Assembly: GCF_027052235.1 (NCBI RefSeq)
Contig: NZ_JALUFF010000064.1
Span: forward strand, 1 to 64,000
DNA length: 64,000 nucleotides
Direction: 5' to 3'
DNA from: Thermococcus sp.
GTDB taxonomy: Archaea > Methanobacteriota_B > Thermococci > Thermococcales > Thermococcaceae
Each line of letters starts with the position of its first letter. The first letter of the stretch is position 1. Position numbers and translations under genes: made by a program. The notes under the pieces are model-generated. The model was not told the DNA's origin, made no database searches, and worked only from the letters and a program-made list of their open reading frames with translations. Positions 19,679-31,761 of the stretch are shown in pieces.

Positions 19679-20170
19679 TTACTCGGACTTCCGGCGCTCC
19701 ATCTTTATAACGTAGTCAGCAGCGTTCTGGAGAGCCACCGAGAAACCGGGCTCGGTCCCTATGACTATGGTCTCCTTTCCGCGCCTTTTGGCCTCCTGTA
19801 TTATGGGCAGGAAGTCGGCATCCCTCGTTGCGAGGGCTATGACATCGACGTCCGAGTTGTAAATCAGCTCCATCGCCTCTATCGCTATCCTGACGTCGGT
19901 GTCGCCGGCCACGATGACCGGTTCCAGTCCCTGGTTCACAACGGCCTCTATCAACCCCTGAGGCGCGTACTGGTTCAGAACGACCTTCGCGACCCTTATC
20001 TTGCCTATTCTTTCAAGGGCCTCCACTATGTCCTCAAGCTTTATCCCGAACTCCTTACGGAGTATGTTGGGCCCGTCTATTATCAAGCCTATGGTTCTCG
20101 TCTTTTCTTCTTTTTTCTCTTCCTTCTCGCCCCGTTCCCTCTTAAGAACCTTGTACAGGGTTTCCCTCAC
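19679..20170 (-). CDS. NYN-domain (PIN-like nuclease fold) protein A
   Basis: A 163-residue protein of the NYN/LabA-DUF88 family (TIGR00288-like). The conserved acidic motifs are present: [27 protein letters not shown] and [13 protein letters not shown], which together form the metal-dependent RNase-like site of the PIN/NYN fold. A charged Arg/Lys/Glu-rich N-terminal tail precedes the domain. The GTG start overlaps the stop of a paralogous gene, so the pair is co-translated. It is probably an RNA-processing nuclease; the substrate is unknown. Confidence 0.88.
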
Positions 20171-20679
20171 TCCTCCTCCCTCCTTGGGGTGAGGACTATG
20201 GTGTAGTCCGCCGCGTGCTTGAGCGCAACTGAAAAGCCGGGTTCAACGCCTATCACTATCGTCTCCTTCCCCTTCTCCTTGGCTTTCAGAATTACGGGCA
20301 GAAATTCCGCGTTCCTTGTTGCGAGGGCTATTATGTCTATGTTTGGATTGTAGATTTCCCTCATGGCCTCAACCGCGAGCTTCACGCCCGTCTCGCCCGA
20401 TACTATTATGGCCTCAAACCCCTGGTTTGAGACCGCCTCTATCAATCCCTGGGGGGCGTACTGGTTGAGGATTACCTTCGCGACCCTTATGTCCCCGAAG
20501 CCTTCAAGGGCCTCCACTATATCCTCAAGCTTGACACCGAGGTCTTTGCGGAGCATGTTGGGACCGTCGATGAGAAGGGCTATCCTCTTCCCCCTCTTCA
20601 CTTTCCTCTTCATCATCCCGATGCTTTTGATGCCGTCCTTTGTTATTGAGACTATCCTTTCCCAGCTACCCCCGGGCAT
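20167..20679 (-). CDS. NYN-domain protein B, paralogue with altered acidic residues
   Basis: A 170-residue paralogue of the following gene. It shares [20 protein letters not shown] and [16 protein letters not shown], but the acidic positions differ: SGETGVKL where the partner has AGDTDVRI, and [10 protein letters not shown] where the partner has [10 protein letters not shown]. Only the first Asp (IDGPN) is clearly kept. This suggests weak or lost nuclease activity and a regulatory or structural role, perhaps as a heterodimer partner. The start at ATG 20679 follows GGTGACATCC; GTG 20688 is possible. The overlap with the downstream paralogue is four bases. Confidence 0.85.
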
Positions 20680-20774
20680 GGATGTCACCGATGATATTTT
20701 GACATGAACTAAGCGGTACTATCGCCGTTTCTACGGCTAATCCCTATAAAAATGTGTTGTTCAGGGAGGAGACC

Positions 20775-23207
20775 TCAGAGAAGTCTCTTGTAGTAATACC
20801 AGAGTCCCCTGATGATGTCCCTGAGTTCTATCATCGTGAAGGTTTCCGTCCTGTCTATGAGCTTTGCGGTTTCTTCCCAGCTATGAGCTTGTAAAACGCG
20901 GTAGATGAGGAGCTTTATCTGCCTCTCGTCGAGGTAGGGCTTCATCCAGCCGTCGAGGAAGTAGAGCTTCACTATCGGCTTTACGGCATCAACCACCGTG
21001 TCGTAGGTTAAAACCTTGCCCGTGAAAGCATCCAACCTCTTCCTCTGTATCTCCGTGAGGTGAATCGGGTAATCAACGGCCTCGCCAAAGGGCGTCTCGA
21101 AGAGCCAGCGCGCTATCTCGGGTTCGAGCTCGCGGTGGGTATCGCCCAGCCACTCTGTGAACCTTATCCTGAACTCGTCGTTGGCTTTCTTGATGAGCTT
21201 TCTTGCCTTCTCGCTTATCGGTTTGAGGACTATCGTGGTGAACTCACCGCTGACCGGGTTTCTCGCTGGACTGAGATGCACAACGGCAAAGCCGTTCCTT
21301 ATCCAGAAGCGGACGAGCTCTTCACTTGCCCCAAAGCCCGAGCCGATCCAATCGAGGCCCTTCTCTCTGGCCTCTTTCTCAAGAAGCTCTAAAGCTTTGC
21401 TTCCCAGTCCCATGTCCATGGCATCCGGGTGGGTCGCTATTCTAACTATGCGGTATCCCTTAAGCCTTGCGAACTCCTTCAAATAGTGGTGCTTGACCAT
21501 CATATCCGGGATTATGTTTCCCCTCGGCTTGTAGCCCTTGGCCATCTTCTCTATGACGTTCTTCGGTATGTTGCCTTCTTTAGCTATCTGGATTGCCGTC
21601 ACTATCTTGCCGTTCTTGAGCCTCAAAACTCTCGCCTCGTGGTGGGGGGCATCTGCCAGAAGAGCGACATCACTCGGCCTGTTGCGGTAGTGGGCTAAAA
21701 TGTAGATTCCGACGAAGTGCCTCAGTTCTGGCCTGTCGTTCTCGAACCAGTCGTCGAGGTCAGGTTTTTCGAGGTAGACCTCCTTTCTCTTTATCAGCTC
21801 ATAGTCTTCATCGGTGAGCTCGACGGGTTCCGCATCGAGGAGGAGGACGTCAAAGAGCCACTTCTCTATCGGGTCGCCGTAGGCGTATCTAATCGGCTCG
21901 TCCATGTGGAGCTCCTTAAACTCTCTCTTCTCCCTTGCCTTCTTGAGGAACTTGACGGAGAAGCCTCTGCCAGCACCTTCGTAGCCGTGGATTGTCGAGG
22001 AGTAAACGACGCGCTCCTTGTTGAGGTACTTGTGAAGTATTGGCACGTGGATTCCCGCCGCTTCATCGAGGATGTAGAGGTCTGCGCTCTTTCTGTAGCC
22101 CTCGGCTGGAGGGTAATACCTCAGACCTATCTTCCTTGCATAGAGCTCCTTTATGAGGCCCTTCTCCTCCACAACGTAGGGCTTGAAGCCGAGCTTTTCA
22201 AGGGCCCTCTTGGCGAAGCGGAAAAGCGATTGAACGTTTTCGGGCTCGGGAGCGGTCACCACTATTCTGGTGCGCTTTCCAAGGGCCAGTGCAAGGCCTA
22301 TGGCGGCTATTCCAACGGAGACGCTCTTACCCCTTCCCCTGTCGGCCGTGAGAACGAGCATTCCCTCCCTTTCAGCCAACTCCTCAAAGGCCTTGAGAAC
22401 TTCAACCTGCCCCTCTGTGAGGGCCATCTTATAGAGTTCTCTGGGAAAGAGAGTCTCCTCCGGAATGGGGACGCCTTTCCTTCCCTTTATCCTCGCCTGG
22501 CTTTTGCTCCTCTTCGGCTTCTTCTTTATCTTCCCGTTCTCGGTTATGATGTAGATCCCCTCGTGCTCCGTGAACTTCCTGATGAGCCTTCTGTTGAAGC
22601 GCTTCTTTACGTCGTCTATGGTGTAAGGTGGCGTAACCAGGCTCTTGTGGAAGCCCGTCCACATATCCTTCCACTTCTTGAAGGGGTGAGCGAGGATGAA
22701 TATCAGCCCGCCGCCCCTCACCGTCTCGATGATCCTGCCGAGGTCGTTAGGTGAATAATCGTAGCTCATGTCCAGAATTAGAAGGTCATAAGTCCTCCCG
22801 AGTATGTCGCGGGTGTGCTTGAAGGTGACAGCCTGAACGTTAACCTCAGAACCCGCCAAAACGTCAAAGTGCTTTCTAAACGCTTCATAACGCTTCCTTC
22901 CGAAGGTCTCCTCGCCGAGGGCATCAGTTGCGTAAAGAACCTCGATTTTATCCTCGCTTTCATCGCGGAGGCGCTTCTTAATCAGCTCGTCAAGGATATC
23001 GCTTAAAACCCTCGCAGAAGCACCAGCTAGGATCCCCGCCACTTCGGCTTTCCTCTCGGTGTCCCCTTCGATGACTATCATTCTCCTGTGAAACTTCTCA
23101 AGGGCTTGAGCGAGGGCAGTCTCGGTGAGCTTCAAAACCTCGTCCTTGACCTTCTCACTTTTAGCGTAGTCTCTCACTTCCCTGTCAAAGCGAACCTTAA
23201 CCGTCAT
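20775..23207 (-). CDS. tmcA: tRNA(Met)/RNA cytidine acetyltransferase TmcA (Nat10-like)
   Basis: An 810-residue enzyme making N4-acetylcytidine. The order is an N-terminal domain, an RNA-helicase-like ATPase (Walker A TADRGRGKSVS near residue 285, DEAAGIHVPIL as Walker B), a GNAT acetyltransferase domain (ATHPDAMDMGLGSKALELLE near residue 595) and a C-terminal tRNA-binding region. Acetyl-CoA and ATP are substrates. In Thermococcus the homologue acetylates many RNAs and supports growth at high temperature (established knowledge). Its start is preceded by GGGGGAGGAGAG. The AT-rich island gene upstream is on the same strand but 110 bases away. Confidence 0.96.
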   Translation of the reverse strand: MTVKVRFDREVRDYAKSEKVKDEVLKLTETALAQALEKFHRRMIVIEGDTERKAEVAGILAGASARVLSDILDELIKKRLRDESEDKIEVLYATDALGEETFGRKRYEAFRKHFDVLAGSEVNVQAVTFKHTRDILGRTYDLLILDMSYDYSPNDLGRIIETVRGGGLIFILAHPFKKWKDMWTGFHKSLVTPPYTIDDVKKRFNRRLIRKFTEHEGIYIITENGKIKKKPKRSKSQARIKGRKGVPIPEETLFPRELYKMALTEGQVEVLKAFEELAEREGMLVLTADRGRGKSVSVGIAAIGLALALGKRTRIVVTAPEPENVQSLFRFAKRALEKLGFKPYVVEEKGLIKELYARKIGLRYYPPAEGYRKSADLYILDEAAGIHVPILHKYLNKERVVYSSTIHGYEGAGRGFSVKFLKKAREKREFKELHMDEPIRYAYGDPIEKWLFDVLLLDAEPVELTDEDYELIKRKEVYLEKPDLDDWFENDRPELRHFVGIYILAHYRNRPSDVALLADAPHHEARVLRLKNGKIVTAIQIAKEGNIPKNVIEKMAKGYKPRGNIIPDMMVKHHYLKEFARLKGYRIVRIATHPDAMDMGLGSKALELLEKEAREKGLDWIGSGFGASEELVRFWIRNGFAVVHLSPARNPVSGEFTTIVLKPISEKARKLIKKANDEFRIRFTEWLGDTHRELEPEIARWLFETPFGEAVDYPIHLTEIQRKRLDAFTGKVLTYDTVVDAVKPIVKLYFLDGWMKPYLDERQIKLLIYRVLQAHSWEETAKLIDRTETFTMIELRDIIRGLWYYYKRLL

Positions 23208-23317: not shown

Positions 23318-25138
23318 TTACTCATCTAACAACTTCTTTAATGTCGCGGTGAGTGCTCTCAAATGAACTTTCTTCCTGATTTCTGAATTAACTCTCCTTC
23401 TTAACTGAGTTTCATCTGGAAGGAGGATTATGGAGACTTTTCCATTTAGCTCTCTTTGGACTCTTTTGACAATTTCCCTGTATGATTTACTACCAATATA
23501 TGCAACAACCCACCTATTTTTTGCATAGGTTTCTAGAAACTCTTTAAGTCTGGTGGATACTAGGTTCACTTGTTTCTCAGGGGTACGAGAGGATAATATG
23601 AAGTCATATTCCAAGATTGGGGGCTCCGTTTCAAAATTCTGCGGAACTGGACCATACATGCCAGAGAGAGTGACTTTTTCGATCTTCCTTAAGTTAATGC
23701 CCTGCTCCTGAAGATATCTAAAAATAACTTTGTGGGTTGTAGATTTTGAGTAAGGTTTCTTAGGAGTACATGATAATAGTAGAATAACTTTCTTCTCGGG
23801 AGAGACATAATAAGAGGTTTTTGTTATGTCAAACTTGGTGGGGTCACGCTTTAAGGATATTTTTCTAGTGTAGAACTGCTCTCTAGAGATTTTTGGAAGT
23901 TTCAGCCCCAATTCATTGATAATCTCAATAAAATCATCATCAATTGTGGACAATTTGGCAATTATTTTTAAAAGCTTACTATCATTGCGAGAATAATTAA
24001 CAAGCCACTCCTTAAATTCACGGGAATTTGGATAGTATGCAGTTATTTCATCAACAAGTTTTAGTTGCATAGAGAGGTTATGCAGGGCGATTATGCCATA
24101 AATGTCTGACTTGATTATTTTTTGACCATTAAGATGGTAATGAGAATAACTCTTGCTTCTTAAGATTTTTTTGACCATTCGAAGATTTTGACCTCCAATC
24201 CGAGCACAGAAAGGACATGAGTCTAGGTCTTTGTTTGTGATTTCATGAAATCTCTTTTTTCGGTTATACGAAACAAAAAACTGGAGATTCTGAGCTGCTT
24301 TGACATACGTATTACTGTCAAAACTATTCACACCAAGATAATACATAAAAGGCACAATCTTTCCTGAAATACCAAAAATATGTACAGGCACATCTTCCAA
24401 AGTATGGGACATCTCCCGCAATGTATCCCTAACGGCCTTTATTATCTCAACAATAAGCTCATAATGATTCTTTATTGGAACCATTGAACCTATCGCCAGT
24501 CCAAACGGGTAATTAGAATACCTGTTGAATCCTGCTTCTTCAAGTGCACCCACCAATGAGTTGAGATAATATTGAATCTCCTTGTAGGATCTGCCGTGAA
24601 CGGCAAGATACGGAAAAACTAGTGCTTTGTATGTGTCATACACTAACTCCATTAGACGTACTGCGTTTAGGATACTTTTCCCCATTCTCTCCTTAGTTTC
24701 TTTTTCATTTAAACCAGGAGGTATTGGATAATCCAAAGAGGCAACATAGTCTGCACCAAGTTTAAGTTGCAAATCTAAGATGCTCTCAGGTGTCGCCTTG
24801 AGCTTGTATTTTGATAAATCGTACTCCTTATTGTACAGGAGTTTGAAACCACCGCTATCTGCAAATAACGTTGGAGAATACTCAGGATTTTCTTGTGCAA
24901 TCCAGTCTTTTAATGTTCGCCCTCCTTCAAACCACTCATTAAAACTCTTTTCACTGAGATCAAAATCCACAAAATGGAGAACTTGAGTCATAATTGCAGG
25001 CAATTTCAACTCCCGTATAATTCCCCGTTTAATAGATTTCCAGATACCACCATTTCGAAGAACTCCTGGGGGACCTGTCATGAAATTAACGACAGGGAAA
25101 AATGTGAATTCTTGTAATGGCTTTGGACGGGCCGACAT
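23318..25138 (-). CDS. DpdA/TgtA5-like 7-deazaguanine transglycosylase with ArcS-type catalytic motif
   Basis: A 606-residue protein. Residues 1-360 look like a tRNA-guanine transglycosylase barrel: FADSGGFKLL (Asp94, aligning with the TGT DSGGFQ acid), SLDYPIPP, HIFGISGK, NSFDSNTY (Asp274, candidate nucleophile), a degenerate zinc site DSCPFC (C308, C311) and the TGT-like LHNL (His353). Residues 450-550 carry CTPKKPYSKSTTH, an exact match to the ArcS pattern C-x3-KPY-x2-S-x2-H (DUF5591-type), then SGMYGPVP. No PUA domain is seen at the C-terminus, which argues against ordinary tRNA archaeosine enzymes. DpdA/TgtA5 relatives insert preQ0-type bases into DNA. It is strongly AT-rich relative to tmcA, a sign of transfer. 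The substrate (DNA or RNA) is inferred. Confidence 0.8.
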   Translation of the reverse strand: MSARPKPLQEFTFFPVVNFMTGPPGVLRNGGIWKSIKRGIIRELKLPAIMTQVLHFVDFDLSEKSFNEWFEGGRTLKDWIAQENPEYSPTLFADSGGFKLLYNKEYDLSKYKLKATPESILDLQLKLGADYVASLDYPIPPGLNEKETKERMGKSILNAVRLMELVYDTYKALVFPYLAVHGRSYKEIQYYLNSLVGALEEAGFNRYSNYPFGLAIGSMVPIKNHYELIVEIIKAVRDTLREMSHTLEDVPVHIFGISGKIVPFMYYLGVNSFDSNTYVKAAQNLQFFVSYNRKKRFHEITNKDLDSCPFCARIGGQNLRMVKKILRSKSYSHYHLNGQKIIKSDIYGIIALHNLSMQLKLVDEITAYYPNSREFKEWLVNYSRNDSKLLKIIAKLSTIDDDFIEIINELGLKLPKISREQFYTRKISLKRDPTKFDITKTSYYVSPEKKVILLLSCTPKKPYSKSTTHKVIFRYLQEQGINLRKIEKVTLSGMYGPVPQNFETEPPILEYDFILSSRTPEKQVNLVSTRLKEFLETYAKNRWVVAYIGSKSYREIVKRVQRELNGKVSIILLPDETQLRRRVNSEIRKKVHLRALTATLKKLLDE

Positions 25139-25218
25139 ATTTAATCCCTACTCTCAAAGCCTCACGTTAGATTTAAAAATGTTTAGTGCTCTGCTATAGA
25201 AATGAAGGTGTAGTCATT
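25139..25218. promoter_or_regulatory. Shared divergent promoter of the two-gene island
   Basis: Eighty bases separate the two divergent start codons. The only strong TATA-like element is the AT-rich TTTAAAAATG core around 25172-25181, which reads as a TATA box in both directions. The helicase gene has AAGGTG nine bases before ATG 25219. The transglycosylase-like gene has no clear ribosome binding site and may be translated from a short leader. Overlapping promoters would couple expression of the two. Confidence 0.5.
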
Positions 25219-28200
25219 ATGAGTAAGGCAGGCTTAACGTTACATCCAAGCGAGATTGCTAGATATTTTGAGCTTGATAAATGTCCAAAATATGTCTTCT
25301 GGCTAAGTAGAAAGAACGAGCTTGAAAAAAGTTCAGAGAATCTAGATGAGAAAATAAAAAAACGCTTGAAAGGTGAAATTGATAAAGTGCTAAGGAAACA
25401 TGGTAAAAATTTCGAAAAAGCTCAGCAAAGAATATTGGCTAGGATAAGCCAAATCTCTGAAGTACGAGACAATAGCAGTTTTGATGAACTAGTAGATTAC
25501 ATCATCAACAAACGAGGATGCAATAAAGAAGCGTGCATCTTTACCCAACCTTCTTTAGAAGGTACAATTGGGATTTATGTTATTGAAGGCAGGGCTGATA
25601 TTGTCTTGGTAAGACACTCAGGACAAAAAACCGAGATATGGGTTTTTGAAGCAAAGTTCACTAATCAAGAGAAGTTCCATCACAGACTCCAAGCTATAAT
25701 ATACGCGAAGTTGATTTACGATGCTGTCCACAAGCAAATCCAAGAGCAAGGACGTTCGCTTGAGATTTATGTTTCGGTTCTAACAAAAAAGAACAATCTA
25801 GAATTGGGATTAGATAAAATAAAAAAACTCAGATTTCCCGACGAAACAAGAACATATGTTGAAATTTTAGAAAGTACTTTGAAAAAAGATGGAATTTTTG
25901 ATAAGATACTAACAGGGGAGGAGACTCCCAGATTCTGGATTAGCAAAAGATGTCAAGGGTGCCCCTACGAAGCATTTTGCATTAAAGAGGCTGTGGAGAA
26001 AAAAGGTCTGGAATTGTTAGGCATTCGACCTGGTGATCAAGAAATTCTAGAAGAGATAGGTATTCGCTCGTTAGAAGATTTGGCAGATTTATATGAGTAT
26101 CCTGAAAAGTTTTATCCTGCAGGACGTGAGGGATTTAAACATTTCAGACCAAAGCCCGGTAAAGAGGATATTATAAATACTGTATTAAATAAGCTCAATA
26201 TATCCAATCTCCAAAAACTTGCCCAAGGTGCATATCGGCTCGTAAGGGAGTTAAATTGTAATCCAGATAATTTCTCTGATTGGATACAAGGCTCTGGATA
26301 TAATCTACCAAGGGACATCTACGATGAAACTCAACTCAGGAGGAAGGGCATATCCCCACCAGGATATCCTTCGGGTTCGCTAATCCGAGTTTATATCTTT
26401 GTCCAACATGATCCTATCCATGATAGAGTGGTATTGTTGAGTGCAACTGTAGATAATACTTTAACTGGCAAGTCTAGGAATATCTCTGAGCTAATACACA
26501 TACCAATCGAAAAATTAAGTAACTCTCAATACAGGGATTTTGAAGATAAGATACTAGACTTTTTTGAGAAGGAACTTTTAGAGAATTTCTTTAAAAAGCT
26601 AATCTGGGCAATTAATGATATCAAACCACAATTACCTGGGGATCAATGTTATATTCACCTATACTTTTACAGCAAGTTCCAGCGCTTTAAATTTATGGAT
26701 GCAATAAGAAGACATAAAAAACTCTATGGATACAAACCCATAAGATGGCTACTTGGGCTAAGAAAAGAGATTGATCAAGAGATGGTGTCTATTCTCAAAG
26801 ACGAAATAACTAAAAGACATGCCTTAAGATTTCCTGGACTTGGAATTATCCCAGTTGTAGCCCACTATTATTGGAATGGAAATGATTATTATTGGAATAA
26901 CGAGTATAATGGATGGTTTAGGTGGGACCCGGACATAAAATCAGAGTTTGAAGAACTTTTTAGAATTGGAGCAGCAAAAAAGTGCTCAGATAATAATGAC
27001 GACAATGATATACATCTAGACCTGGCCAGAGTTGAAGATATATTTCCCAATGGTACTGCGAGAATCCCCTCTTGGATATATCCCGTAATAAACAGAGAGA
27101 TTGAACAGATTCCCCTTGAGTACATCTGGAAGTTAACTACTTCAAAGTCTGGAAGAATAAAACTTGAGAAACTCGCAATTAATCTTGCACTTGCAATAAG
27201 GCATATAGAACGGAGTATACCTGAATGGTCCAAAGACGTAACAATCCCAAAAGAACCTATTCCCGCAGATGCATTAGAAACACTAGGATTTGAAAACATT
27301 TCACTAGCAGAGGTCTTAATTGAGTATCAGAAACTAGAATATCAAGCAAAGAAAGAGCAACTCTTTGAGCATTACCGGCTAAGCACTCTCGAACGGACAA
27401 ATACCGACAAATCTGTCCGACTTAAAGTAGTTGAGATTAAGACTGATGAAACTTCCAATATCATAATATCTGGGAAAATTGTGTCTCCTGAGGGAGACTT
27501 ATACAATCTGGATTCTGGGTCTCCACTTTCTCTTTCGGAGGGATCATGGGTAGTGATAACACCTATTGATCGCTCTGGAAGAGAAATTTGGCCATACTCC
27601 TTCCCAGAGTCAAAAAGAATGTCAATATTGTCGTCCATACTTAGAATAAGAGAAACCTATGATTCAGTAACTATGGATCTCTTGGTATACAAAATTTCGA
27701 AGACCCCTTGGAATAGAGATTCATTATATTTCGTTGAGAAGCATCCGCAGTCATTTAAAGTAAGAGGCAATTCTATAATAATCACGGATACCTACCATCC
27801 TCTTTACGGTACCCAGATTAGCAAAGAGCAAGATATTATTATTGACGAAGCGTTGGATAATATTGTTATGTCATATTCCCACAAATACCTTTTGAATATT
27901 CTCCGTTTAGAACAAACACCTGAACAATTAGCTCACTTCAATCCAATATATTATGTATTAGCTAATATTTACACTAACTCGAGTAAAATCACAAAGAGTT
28001 TTATGAATTCGATATTATTGCCATCCAAATGGAATCCAAAGGATGTTGTTGAATTCGTCAAAAAACTTGAACGCTCTGGAAAACACCCCAACAGAAGTCA
28101 GAAGCGATTTATTCATGATATTTCCAGAAAAATAGTCCTTTTACAAGGACCTCCTGGAACCGGGAAAACTTCATCTGCAATAGCCCCTGCAGTTCTTAGT

Positions 28201-29796
28201 AGGGCATATTCTGCAATAAAAAACAAGAAGAAGCAGATGTTTTTTGTCACGGCAATCTCTCATACTGCCATTAACGAAGCTCTTAAAAAAATAATTAGTT
28301 TAAAAAAGGAACTGGCCAATCCAAACTTAGACAAGAACTTCACAACAGCGTTAAACAACATTCATATATATAGGCTTGTAAACAGCGAGTATCAAAGAAA
28401 CATTCTAATTGAAAGAGAGCTACGAGGATATGAAGACTACATTGAATTCATCAACTACAAATCTGAAAGAGATGTAGACAAAATTTTACACAAATATCTT
28501 GTGGCTGGGAAGAAAAGACGTAAAAAATCAAAATCTAAGTATCATGATTTAGAGTCATTTATAACCGGATTTTCTGAAATTCCCATATTCTTTGGAACCC
28601 CCGGAGCAATGAAAAAGTTCTTTGAAGAACTCTCCGAGAAATTACCTAAAGAGGACTCTTTCTTAAAGGATTCCAAAGAATTTGTAGACTTATTAGTTAT
28701 TGATGAAGCTAGCATGATGGACTTACCAACGTTTTTCTTAGTAACTTCCTTTCTCAAAGAAAATGGGCAAATCCTACTAGTCGGGGACCATAGACAAATG
28801 CAACCGATTCAACAACATGACTGGGAACATGAAGATCGTGAAACAATTGAACAACATACACCATTCCTGTCTGCTATCAATTTTATAAGATTCCTACGTG
28901 GAGAACTCTCCGGATTGGAAAGAGAAGAGTTCAAAAAAGTCCTCTATAGAGACCCCCCATCTTGGGAATGCGATAAGCTGAAAGACGTAATCTTACCCTT
29001 CCATCGGCTTGATGAAACATATAGGTTGCCCCAGGTCTCTGCAGATATGCATACTGATTTATTTTATAAATACGATGGTATTAGATTAAAGAGCAAGAAA
29101 GAGGACTCACCAAGATTTAGGGAGATGCTATCAGAACACATCAATTCTGAACTAAAAGGTAGACCATGTGCTAATGCTCTCTTTCCGGAATATCCTATAA
29201 CACTGATACTCCATAATGAAAACAAATCCACAAAGATTAATGAAGTTGAAAAGCTAATTATTGCAGAGTTAATTAGAAACCTCCCAGAAGAATACACTGC
29301 CCAAGACAAGCTTGGGATTGTTGTACCATTCAAGGCACAGCGCGCTCAGATTAAAAGTCTCCTCAGAGGGCTGGGGCTAGAACATGTTCAAGTTGATACT
29401 GTTGAAAGATTCCAAGGTGGAGAAAAAGACATTATAATCATCTCTCTAACGGCAAGTGATCCCTCCTATATAAGTGCAGTCTTAGAGTTTCTGTTTAACC
29501 CCAATAGACTTAATGTTGCCATGAGCAGAATGAAAGAAAAGCTCATATTGATAGGATCGCAAGAAGTATTTAATGCAACAACAACAGATGTCCAGAAGTT
29601 TGAAGAACTAATAGAACCTTGGAGAGCCCTGTTTAGAAAGATACGGACTTATGGGGAAGAATTGTGGCGTGGGACTCTGGAGGATTTTGTTAGAGAGATG
29701 GACACCGATAATAATGGATATCAAAAAACACTAGAAAAATACAAGGAGACTAACATAGAAATCTTCGGAATAAACAAATGGCCTAAGCGTCCATAA
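25219..29796 (+). CDS. Dna2-like protein: Cas4-type Fe-S RecB nuclease fused to SF1B (Upf1-like) helicase
   Basis: A 1525-residue protein. The N-terminal nuclease shows C22 (DKCPKY), GRADIV near 124, FEAKF near 142, the QAIIY (Q-x3-Y) motif and the Fe-S cysteines CQGCPYEAFC (C245, C248, C254), as in Cas4, AddB and Dna2. A helix-hairpin-like segment follows (LLGIRPGDQEILEEIGIRSL). The middle ~500 residues are unassigned. A beta-barrel precedes the helicase: Walker A GPPGTGKTSS near 978, TAISHTAINEAL, VIDEAS near 1160, LVGDHRQMQP, ERFQGGEKD near 1397, RLNVAMSR near 1430. ATG 25219 has AAGGTG; an in-frame upstream start at 25186 is weaker. AT-rich with AGA/ATA codons, unlike its neighbours. It likely acts as a DNA end-processing or restriction effector. 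Confidence 0.88.
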   Translation: MSKAGLTLHPSEIARYFELDKCPKYVFWLSRKNELEKSSENLDEKIKKRLKGEIDKVLRKHGKNFEKAQQRILARISQISEVRDNSSFDELVDYIINKRGCNKEACIFTQPSLEGTIGIYVIEGRADIVLVRHSGQKTEIWVFEAKFTNQEKFHHRLQAIIYAKLIYDAVHKQIQEQGRSLEIYVSVLTKKNNLELGLDKIKKLRFPDETRTYVEILESTLKKDGIFDKILTGEETPRFWISKRCQGCPYEAFCIKEAVEKKGLELLGIRPGDQEILEEIGIRSLEDLADLYEYPEKFYPAGREGFKHFRPKPGKEDIINTVLNKLNISNLQKLAQGAYRLVRELNCNPDNFSDWIQGSGYNLPRDIYDETQLRRKGISPPGYPSGSLIRVYIFVQHDPIHDRVVLLSATVDNTLTGKSRNISELIHIPIEKLSNSQYRDFEDKILDFFEKELLENFFKKLIWAINDIKPQLPGDQCYIHLYFYSKFQRFKFMDAIRRHKKLYGYKPIRWLLGLRKEIDQEMVSILKDEITKRHALRFPGLGIIPVVAHYYWNGNDYYWNNEYNGWFRWDPDIKSEFEELFRIGAAKKCSDNNDDNDIHLDLARVEDIFPNGTARIPSWIYPVINREIEQIPLEYIWKLTTSKSGRIKLEKLAINLALAIRHIERSIPEWSKDVTIPKEPIPADALETLGFENISLAEVLIEYQKLEYQAKKEQLFEHYRLSTLERTNTDKSVRLKVVEIKTDETSNIIISGKIVSPEGDLYNLDSGSPLSLSEGSWVVITPIDRSGREIWPYSFPESKRMSILSSILRIRETYDSVTMDLLVYKISKTPWNRDSLYFVEKHPQSFKVRGNSIIITDTYHPLYGTQISKEQDIIIDEALDNIVMSYSHKYLLNILRLEQTPEQLAHFNPIYYVLANIYTNSSKITKSFMNSILLPSKWNPKDVVEFVKKLERSGKHPNRSQKRFIHDISRKIVLLQGPPGTGKTSSAIAPAVLSRAYSAIKNKKKQMFFVTAISHTAINEALKKIISLKKELANPNLDKNFTTALNNIHIYRLVNSEYQRNILIERELRGYEDYIEFINYKSERDVDKILHKYLVAGKKRRKKSKSKYHDLESFITGFSEIPIFFGTPGAMKKFFEELSEKLPKEDSFLKDSKEFVDLLVIDEASMMDLPTFFLVTSFLKENGQILLVGDHRQMQPIQQHDWEHEDRETIEQHTPFLSAINFIRFLRGELSGLEREEFKKVLYRDPPSWECDKLKDVILPFHRLDETYRLPQVSADMHTDLFYKYDGIRLKSKKEDSPRFREMLSEHINSELKGRPCANALFPEYPITLILHNENKSTKINEVEKLIIAELIRNLPEEYTAQDKLGIVVPFKAQRAQIKSLLRGLGLEHVQVDTVERFQGGEKDIIIISLTASDPSYISAVLEFLFNPNRLNVAMSRMKEKLILIGSQEVFNATTTDVQKFEELIEPWRALFRKIRTYGEELWRGTLEDFVREMDTDNNGYQKTLEKYKETNIEIFGINKWPKRP

Positions 29797-29862: not shown

Positions 29863-31761
29863 ATGGTGAAAGGCCTTACCGAGAAAGACCTCGGAAAGTT
29901 CAAGCTCGTGGGAAACATCGACGCCTTCAAGAGAAGGCTCGTTTTCCAGGTGACGGAGATAAACCTCGAAAAGGATGACTACTTCTCAAGGCTCTACCTC
30001 TACGACGGGAGAAAGGTTAAACCCTTTACCTCAGGCAAGAAGGACTCCAATCCGAGATTTTCGCCGGACGGGAGGCTCGTGGCCTTCACCTCGAAGCGTG
30101 ACAAGGAAAGTAAAGAGGCCGAGCTCTACGTCATCCTGACCGACGGCGGCGAGGCGAGGCTCTTAGCAAAGTTCAAATATGGGATAAGAAACCTCCGCTT
30201 TACCGAGGACGGGAAGAGCATAGCGGTCGTTACGCCGATAGACGTCGAGAAGAAGCCGAAGGATGACGTCCACATCATCAAGGAAATACCCTTCTGGTTC
30301 AACGGCGTTGGCTGGGTTTACGGGAAGAGGAGCGTTGTCTATCTGGTGGACGTCGAAACCGGGAAGAAGAAGCGCCTGACGCCAAAGAACCTCGACGTCT
30401 CTCAAATCCGCTTCCACAACAGCAAGCTCTACTTTATTGCCCAAGAGGACCGCGAGAAGAAGCCGATGGTCAGCGACCTCTACGTCCTTGAGGGGAGGAA
30501 AGCAAAGCGCCTAACCCCCGGGAAGTGGAGCATTAGCGACTTCATCCCGCTTGAAGATGGAACCTTCATTCTCAAGGCTAACACTAGGGAAAGGGGAATT
30601 CCAACGAACACGCACATCTACCACTACAACCCCGAGACCGGCGAGATGAGAAAGCTTACTGCGGAACTCGATCGCTCCGCTTACAACTCGCTCAACTGCG
30701 ACGTTCGCGGTTCTCAGAGGGCGGAGTTAGCTTTTAAGGATGGCTGGGTTTACTACGTCGCCACCGACGGCCCGAGGGCGAACCTCTTCAGGGTAAACCT
30801 CGACGGAAAGATAGAGCGCGTTGTCGGCGGAGACAGAAGCGTCGAGAGCTTTGCGATAGGAGATTACATAGCCTTCACCGCTCAGGACGCGGTCACTCCA
30901 ACGGAGCTTTACATCCTGAGGGACGGGAAAGAAAAGAGGGTTACGGACTTCAACGGCTGGATAAAGGAGTACACTCTCTCACAGCCCGAGCACTTTAAGG
31001 TCAAGGCGAGCGATGGGGTTGAGATAGACGCGTGGGTAATGAAGCCCGTTGGCTTCGAGCCGGGCAAGAAGTATCCCGCGGTTCTTGAGATCCACGGCGG
31101 GCCTAAAACCACTTACGGCTACTCCTTCATGCACGAGTTCCATGTTTTGACGGCCAAGGGCTTCGTGGTCATCTTCTCCAATCCGCGCGGAAGCGATGGC
31201 TACGGTGAGGAGTTCGCCGATATAAGGGAGCACTACGGGGAGAGGGATTATCAGGACCTGATGGAGGTCGTTGATGAAGCCGTTAAGCGCTTCGACTTCA
31301 TTGATCCGGAGAGAATAGGTGTCACCGGGGGTTCATACGGCGGCTTCATGACGAACTGGATAGTGGGCCACACGAACCGCTTTAAGGCCGCGGTAACTCA
31401 GCGTTCCATCTCGAACTGGACGAGCTTCTTTGGGACGACGGATATAGGATACTACTTTGCCCCGGACCAGATAGGCTCTGATCCGTGGAGCAACACCGAG
31501 GGCTACTGGGAGAAGAGCCCGCTGAAGTACGCGCCGAACGTTGAAACGCCCTTGCTGATAATCCACTCGATGGAGGACTACCGGTGCTGGCTTCCGGAGG
31601 CACTCCAGTTCTTTACAGCTCTCAAATATCTCGGAAAGACGGTCGAGCTTGCACTCTTCCCGGGCGAGAACCACGACCTATCCCGCTCTGGCAAGCCGAA
31701 GCACAGGGTTAAGAGACTTGAGCTTATTGCCGGGTGGATGGAGAGGTGGCTGAAGGAGTGA
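29863..31761 (+). CDS. Acylaminoacyl peptidase (S9C prolyl oligopeptidase family)
   Basis: A 632-residue serine peptidase. The N-terminal ~370 residues form a beta-propeller (repeats such as NPRFSPDGRLVAFTSKRD). The C-terminal alpha/beta hydrolase carries GGSYGGFM with nucleophile Ser491, HSMEDYRCWLPEA with Asp572 and GENHDLS with His604. It releases N-acylated amino acids or short peptides in the cytosol, and Pyrococcus homologues are well studied. The length is normal. TGGTGGTTCTAA precedes the ATG, and a TATA-like CTTTTATAC is about 40 bases upstream. GC content returns to the genome norm here, marking the right edge of the AT-rich island. Confidence 0.96.
   Translation: MVKGLTEKDLGKFKLVGNIDAFKRRLVFQVTEINLEKDDYFSRLYLYDGRKVKPFTSGKKDSNPRFSPDGRLVAFTSKRDKESKEAELYVILTDGGEARLLAKFKYGIRNLRFTEDGKSIAVVTPIDVEKKPKDDVHIIKEIPFWFNGVGWVYGKRSVVYLVDVETGKKKRLTPKNLDVSQIRFHNSKLYFIAQEDREKKPMVSDLYVLEGRKAKRLTPGKWSISDFIPLEDGTFILKANTRERGIPTNTHIYHYNPETGEMRKLTAELDRSAYNSLNCDVRGSQRAELAFKDGWVYYVATDGPRANLFRVNLDGKIERVVGGDRSVESFAIGDYIAFTAQDAVTPTELYILRDGKEKRVTDFNGWIKEYTLSQPEHFKVKASDGVEIDAWVMKPVGFEPGKKYPAVLEIHGGPKTTYGYSFMHEFHVLTAKGFVVIFSNPRGSDGYGEEFADIREHYGERDYQDLMEVVDEAVKRFDFIDPERIGVTGGSYGGFMTNWIVGHTNRFKAAVTQRSISNWTSFFGTTDIGYYFAPDQIGSDPWSNTEGYWEKSPLKYAPNVETPLLIIHSMEDYRCWLPEALQFFTALKYLGKTVELALFPGENHDLSRSGKPKHRVKRLELIAGWMERWLKE

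Follow-up and report, generated by a model that had tools for sequence, protein, structure and literature searches.

What does an archaeal protein act on when it joins a TGT barrel to an ArcS-type module in a genome that already has both TgtA and ArcS? The question is raised by a gene in a 64,000-nucleotide stretch of Thermococcus DNA (the window). The first-pass annotation had read its product as one enzyme performing both base exchange and side-chain conversion on a non-tRNA target.

A single polypeptide with two modules

The fused protein and its two modules lie in the window as follows.

23318..25138, minus strand: fused DpdA-like TGT and ArcS-type DUF5591 protein, 606 aa (ORF list; domain, profile and PDB matches)
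24044..24868, minus strand: TGT barrel, Pfam PF01702 match, aa 91-365
23429..23821, minus strand: DUF5591 (ArcS catalytic-type) module, aa 440-570 (Pfam and profile comparison)

That one polypeptide holds a TGT barrel together with the ArcS motif was borne out, since a single 606-aa ORF gives two Pfam matches above cut-off, TGT at aa 91-365 (6e-13) and DUF5591 at aa 440-570 (8.5e-20). Sequence searches of the PDB paired the N-terminal half with the P. horikoshii ArcTGT (1iq8, 6e-9) and the C-terminal half with AF0587 (2q07, 2.6e-10). By profile comparison, the fused family matches TgtA residues 6-347 (99.8%, E 1e-27), an alignment that extends the barrel to about aa 3-381, and its C-terminal part matches ArcS 274-399 (97%). 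The family models of ArcS and TgtA both score far below their cut-offs: 71.9 bits against a cut-off of 440 for the ArcS equivalog NF040592, confined to aa 442-569, and 68.8 bits against 350 for TgtA/ArcTGT TIGR00432, over aa 90-508. An AlphaFold model calculated on a 3-sequence alignment had a pLDDT of 40.5.

The Pfam scan of the fused protein returned neither a PUA nor a C2 domain, in agreement with the earlier claim that PUA is missing. The same scan of control proteins from the same genome found TGT, C1, C2 and PUA in TgtA (TGT_C2 above cut-off), and DUF5591 and PUA in ArcS (TGT_C2 weak and below cut-off).

Active sites are retained in both halves

24857..24859, minus strand: Asp94 of DSGGF, counterpart of the Asp in the DSGSF of TgtA (alignment)
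24317..24319, minus strand: Asp274 of FDSN, counterpart of the Asp that serves TgtA as nucleophile (alignment)
23732..23770, minus strand: motif CTPKKPYSKSTTH, aa 457-469 (sequence and alignment)

Asp94 and Asp274, previously proposed as the TGT acidic residues, pair with the TgtA aspartates of DSGSF and FDSAS in the PDB match, the alignment and the profile comparison alike. Like TgtA, the fused protein has a complete barrel with both catalytic aspartates; like ArcS, it has a TGT-derived part followed by a DUF5591 module with the exact motif C-x3-KPY-x2-S-x2-H, as the first-pass annotation had noted. The residues Asp94, Asp274, Cys457, Lys461, Pro462, Tyr463, Ser466 and His469 are invariant in 7/7 full-length homologues from Thermococcus and haloarchaea. 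There are also differences from the two enzymes. The canonical ArcS of the same genome has lost the DSGSF segment and its barrel goes undetected by Pfam, while C2 and PUA are kept; judged by these sequences, the ArcS barrel is degenerate, whereas the fused protein keeps both halves. TgtA, in turn, has either a C1 domain or a DUF5591 that has degenerated and lost its Cys and His, followed by C2 and PUA.

Two details vary among the copies. The published ArcS motif starts with P-C; the haloarchaeal fused proteins also have P-C at this point, and the Thermococcus copies S-C or A-C. The zinc site of the Thermococcus copies consists of C-P-F-C and a His, the first Cys of CxCxxC being absent.

In informative pairs, dN/dS is about 0.09-0.17, and for both halves of the gene about 0.09-0.16 where changes are numerous enough; one very close pair gave 0.43 for the barrel, a value resting on 5 synonymous changes. 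Purifying selection acts on both halves. Taken together, the two significant domain matches in one ORF, the six further full-length homologues and these low ratios place the TGT-DUF5591 fusion far beyond chance.

These data also bear on the idea that only one half is active (exchange only, for instance, with DUF5591 used for binding), or that the gene is a decaying mobile passenger. In favour of this idea, the middle domain of TgtA and the barrel of ArcS have each undergone degeneration, the copy in the Thermococcus MAG G016 is frameshifted, and a MAG from another archaeal phylum (G389, L075:165-8693) has a degenerate, frameshifted TGT-DUF5591 gene with the catalytic Cys replaced. We nevertheless regard a monofunctional or decaying protein as very unlikely, given that the catalytic residues of both halves persist in seven homologues from two distant archaeal groups and that dN/dS is far below 1 in both halves in the informative pairs.

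The host has its own archaeosine machinery

The source genome has a canonical ArcS (G000:C48) and a canonical TgtA (G000:C84), together with a QueC match (E=4e-60). Consequently, preQ0 should be available in this organism, and the fused protein is surplus to the requirements of tRNA archaeosine. The alternative raised in the first-pass annotation, a simple ArcS orthologue with a degenerate barrel in a genome lacking another ArcS, is ruled out because the genome already has its own ArcS and TgtA.

The proposal of one enzyme with a non-tRNA target fared less evenly. In its favour, the active sites of both modules are complete and conserved, there is no tRNA-binding tail, and the neighbourhood (see below) points to DNA and defence. 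The loss of PUA is by itself weak evidence for a non-tRNA target, because TgtA without PUA still makes archaeosine (Sabina and Soell 2006, as cited in PMC11298593); tRNA may be the target of a PUA-less protein as well.

The domain order also suggests where TgtA and ArcS came from. Profile comparison detected a degenerate DUF5591, without the Cys and the His, between the barrel and the tail of TgtA in two other archaeal lineages (95%, E 3e-8; at most 0.9% in 20 column shuffles), and gave no direct detection of the C1 domain of Thermococcus TgtA as a degenerate DUF5591. Because TgtA of these two lineages holds the degenerate module, the ancestor was probably ordered barrel-DUF5591-C2-PUA, and TgtA and ArcS would each have lost the activity that the other kept. 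In G235 (L131) and G090 (L127), TgtA-like proteins have a middle domain that can still be recognised as DUF5591 but is inactive.

The barrel lies on the DpdA-like side

24596..24598, minus strand: His181, a DpdA-type residue, Gln in TgtA (alignment; PMC6884629 for the conserved DpdA His)

A maximum-likelihood tree of 26 barrel sequences, some on long branches and none of them a characterised bacterial DpdA, contains a branch (support 96/98) that has TgtA and a bacterial Tgt on one side and every DpdA-like TGT on the other, where the fused proteins also fall. In the alignment, His181 is common to the fused proteins and is replaced by Gln in TgtA. A conserved His196 is present in DpdA and missing from DpdA2 (Hutinet et al., PMC6884629), and His181 of the fused protein would be its equivalent. 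Against a DNA-marking role counts the DpdA HMM NF041059, which gave no match to the fused protein at E<=1. The same model matched the stand-alone TGT of Thermococcus genome G024 at 2e-18, below its cut-off.

Stand-alone TGTs of 337-400 aa were matched in all but one of 21 sampled non-Thermococcus genomes of the class. They form a clade of their own and have the DpdA-type His in the copies examined; they may serve tRNA in a queuosine-like way or act on DNA.

A nuclease-helicase is encoded divergently

25139..25218, strand not applicable: intergenic region between the two divergent genes, 80 bp long with ATG 25219 taken as the start of the partner, containing a TATA-like, AT-rich stretch
25219..29796, plus strand: partner gene, Dna2/Cas4-like Fe-S PD-(D/E)XK nuclease and SF1 (UPF1-like) helicase (ORF, Pfam, profiles)
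25588..25662, plus strand: PD-(D/E)XK core GRAD...FEAK of the partner (sequence)
25951..25980, plus strand: CxxCx(5)C of the partner, whose cysteines and one nearer the N-terminus are the likely Fe-S ligands (sequence)
28147..28170, plus strand: Walker A GPPGTGKT of the partner helicase (sequence)

The partner, a protein of 1536 aa, joins an N-terminal PD-(D/E)XK nuclease to a helicase of the AAA_11/AAA_12 type (Pfam). Its ORF is open from GTG 25186, and its orthologues suggest a start at ATG 25219. Its nuclease and helicase motifs are all intact and conserved among relatives.

Across 61 Thermococcus-genus genomes, the fused gene occurs in only five (G000, G012, G054, G055 and G016). The divergent pair is present in 4/4 genomes with an intact copy (G000, G012, G054, G055), and the partner is also encoded divergently beside the frameshifted copy of G016 and beside a copy on a stray 6-kb contig. 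The converse does not hold: three genomes of the same set (G002, G025, G035) have a partner relative at 42-43% alone, without the fused gene, and in G002 and G025 it stands directly within a type I R-M operon (HsdM, HsdS, HsdR and a YgjP-like peptidase). As the partner family is also found without any TGT, it may not need a 7-deazaguanine modification.

A 98% identical copy of the fused protein, again with the partner beside it, is filed under Thermodesulfovibrio (JALUAR010000042.1, L005); this contig is probably misbinned, since its GC and gene order are those of the Thermococcus locus.

Relatives in other loci

Among haloarchaea, for which our counts cover plasmid records only, a plasmid of Haladaptatus sp. 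YSMS36 carries the best plasmid match both for the fused protein (33% over 94%) and for the partner (29% over 96%), and the two are again divergent. The same island encodes a second fused protein, a stand-alone DpdA-like TGT, a DUF6884 protein, a PLD protein, a HATPase and a helicase that matches the DpdJ HMM at 2.5e-47, below cut-off. The island (L040:1042-19595) thus holds three TGT-family proteins, two of them TGT-DUF5591 fusions. In Natrinema a single fused protein is encoded next to large helicases, and the degenerate G389 copy sits after a DEAD helicase and before Cas7/Cas5-like genes (Cas naming by eye).

In Thermococcus G024, the two modules are adjacent separate genes, a TGT of 350 aa and a DUF5591 protein of 256 aa. 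Following the Rosetta-stone argument, neighbouring genes in one genome and a fusion in another suggest that both modules act together in defence loci. The G024 locus (L030:8471-18031) has, in a row, NurA, HerA, a 1451-aa ATPase, DUF5591, the DpdA-like TGT and DUF6884; it resembles BRC systems but has two nitrile-type modules.

Haloarchaeal proteins of 734-969 aa, annotated as queuine tRNA-ribosyltransferase and located near DpdA-like genes, have a divergent TGT-like N-terminus (L043:8784-11678, L042:7777-10686, L125:3003-5207), and the two longest also have a DUF6884-like C-terminus (CSGSK).

Viral relatives were found neither by tblastn against phages nor in three viral-contig scans, and a fourth scan gave one distant TGT-only match; as scans with divergent alignments confirm against the first sequence only, distant viral relatives may be missed.

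An insertion cassette between tmcA and a peptidase gene

20775..23207, minus strand: tmcA, a host gene outside the system that borders the insertion site on the left (neighbourhood comparison)
29863..31761, plus strand: S9 peptidase gene, a host gene outside the system that borders the insertion site on the right (neighbourhood comparison)

In 16 genomes the site is empty, with 118-128 bp between the divergently oriented tmcA and S9 peptidase genes, and in 26 others it holds 0.65-3.7 kb of other genes. All four intact copies of the cassette occupy 6.5-6.7 kb exactly between these two genes. The cassette has a GC content of 37% against 53% in the rest of the window, a contrast that repeats in relatives. 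On gene order and composition, the fused gene and its partner are, to all appearances, a mobile, horizontally moved cassette. No further gene was found between tmcA and the peptidase gene; DpdB, a separate DpdC, a YprA-type DpdJ and preQ0 genes are absent from it.

A functional link to tmcA was considered and ruled out, because tmcA is a fixed edge of a site that in other genomes holds different genes; nor do the stand-alone TGTs of the class adjoin tmcA.

Three further observations concern this region. The inserts of the 26 Thermococcus genomes belong mostly to families without annotation, one being a NucS-type nuclease. Contig C25 of the source genome (L107) has a second peptidase gene, 93% identical, beside tmcA at an empty site, which indicates a second Thermococcus strain or species in this MAG. 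Just downstream of tmcA, at 19679-20688 of the window, are two tandem genes for small 'IDGPN' proteins, 65% identical to each other.

The genomic context weighs on the possibility that the fused enzyme modifies RNA, a particular tRNA or another, with a partner that acts on RNA or independently. Both modules are homologous to tRNA-modifying enzymes, ArcS acts on small preQ0 RNAs and nucleosides without an L-shaped tRNA (PMC11298593), TgtA works without PUA according to the reference given there, RNA is a possible substrate for UPF1-like helicases, and the gene adjoins that of a tRNA acetyltransferase, tmcA. This last point loses its force with tmcA being merely one edge of a general insertion site. 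Moreover, the barrel groups away from TgtA, relatives of the partner lie in type I R-M operons and haloarchaeal relatives in Dpd-like islands, and the fused gene is patchy and foreign in composition, unlike tRNA genes. An RNA target is, in our judgement, unlikely.

Comparison with known systems

The components and the idea are already known from Dpd, BRIGADE and BRC (PMC12458937, PMC12839542, PMC6884629). The bacterial Dpd system (DpdA-K) shares with the fused pair a TGT-family exchange enzyme, a helicase and a nuclease, a mobile island and a protein for processing the nitrile, whose family (DUF6884/YaaA-type) is detectably related. The fused pair differs in having two genes only, with exchange and conversion modules fused and no DpdB; an ArcS-type DUF5591 stands in place of a separate DpdC, and one Fe-S PD-(D/E)XK-SF1 protein replaces both DpdJ, a YprA helicase, and DpdK, a PLD nuclease.

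BRIGADE, the haloarchaeal Dpd-like system (PMC12458937), is approached by the full-length homologues of Haladaptatus and Natrinema, which lie among DpdJ-like or large DEAD/DEAH helicases, in Haladaptatus together with a PLD protein. BRIGADE is defined by YprA-like helicases, however, and the Thermococcus pair has none, its partner being an SF1 helicase; the DpdJ-like helicase is found in the Haladaptatus island only. The text of the BRIGADE paper (PMC12458937) mentions neither a TGT-ArcS fusion nor a pairing with an SF1 nuclease-helicase. With BRC (HerA/FtsK-TGT, PMC12839542), the G024 locus shares a TGT by HerA and a large ATPase but has extra DUF5591 and DUF6884 genes, and the window locus differs in lacking HerA, PglZ and GNAT. 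Neither a bifunctional TGT-ArcS protein nor the two-gene arrangement was described in the literature searched, from which most subscription journals and supplements were missing.

A proposed mechanism

Our preferred reading, which we consider probable, is that the fused gene and its partner form a compact, horizontally moved, Dpd-like modification-restriction system. Mechanistically, the N-terminal barrel would replace guanine in DNA by preQ0, a base already produced by the host for its tRNA, and the DUF5591 module would then act through Cys457 on the nitrile of the inserted base. This second step could be the transfer of an amino acid or ammonia, as in ArcS (preQ0-lysine to archaeosine), or hydrolysis of the nitrile to the amide, as in DpdC. 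Profile comparison relates DUF5591 to the DUF6884 (YaaA/DpdC-like) island proteins (90%, E 1.6e-6; at most 2.3% in 30 column shuffles), which makes DpdC-like amide formation a real alternative to ArcS-like amino-acid transfer (PMC11298593). The product could accordingly be preQ0-lysine, archaeosine or the ADG amide. The modified base would mark self DNA, and the partner would unwind and degrade DNA that lacks the mark. We infer the DNA target, the self-marking, the final base and the restriction activity of the pair from the conserved modules and their setting. Points that count against this reading are the absence of DpdB, DpdC and preQ0 genes from the cassette and the missing first Cys of the zinc site.

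A related possibility is a defence system whose TGT acts on invading DNA or nucleotides, damaging them or tagging them for degradation. The mobile cassette with its nuclease-helicase would suit such a role, as would the covalent nucleic-acid intermediates and released guanine of TGT chemistry, and neither a sequence-specificity subunit nor DpdB is encoded. The conserved C-terminal conversion module suggests instead a finished modified base, and characterised Dpd systems mark self DNA (PMC12839542), so that we hold action on the invader to be rather improbable.

In its fullest form, the modification-restriction reading would have a hyperthermophilic archaeon marking its own chromosome with a hypermodified 7-deazaguanine, such as a preQ0-lysine adduct or deoxyarchaeosine, which one bifunctional enzyme would build directly in the DNA, with one nuclease-helicase policing unmarked DNA: a two-protein R-M system and a relic of the bifunctional ancestor of TgtA and ArcS. 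This complete picture is tentative, and we would not expect all of it to hold.

Implications

If the proposed system is real, 7-deazaguanine marking of DNA would need one modification protein and one restriction protein, compared with the eleven-gene Dpd island. It would also mean a host-encoded 7-deazaguanine DNA mark in hyperthermophilic archaea, an ArcS-type reaction carried out on DNA, and a system of this kind within reach in genetically tractable relatives among Thermococcus. For the family itself, the fused protein would offer a concrete model in which TgtA and ArcS descend from a bifunctional protein through reciprocal loss.
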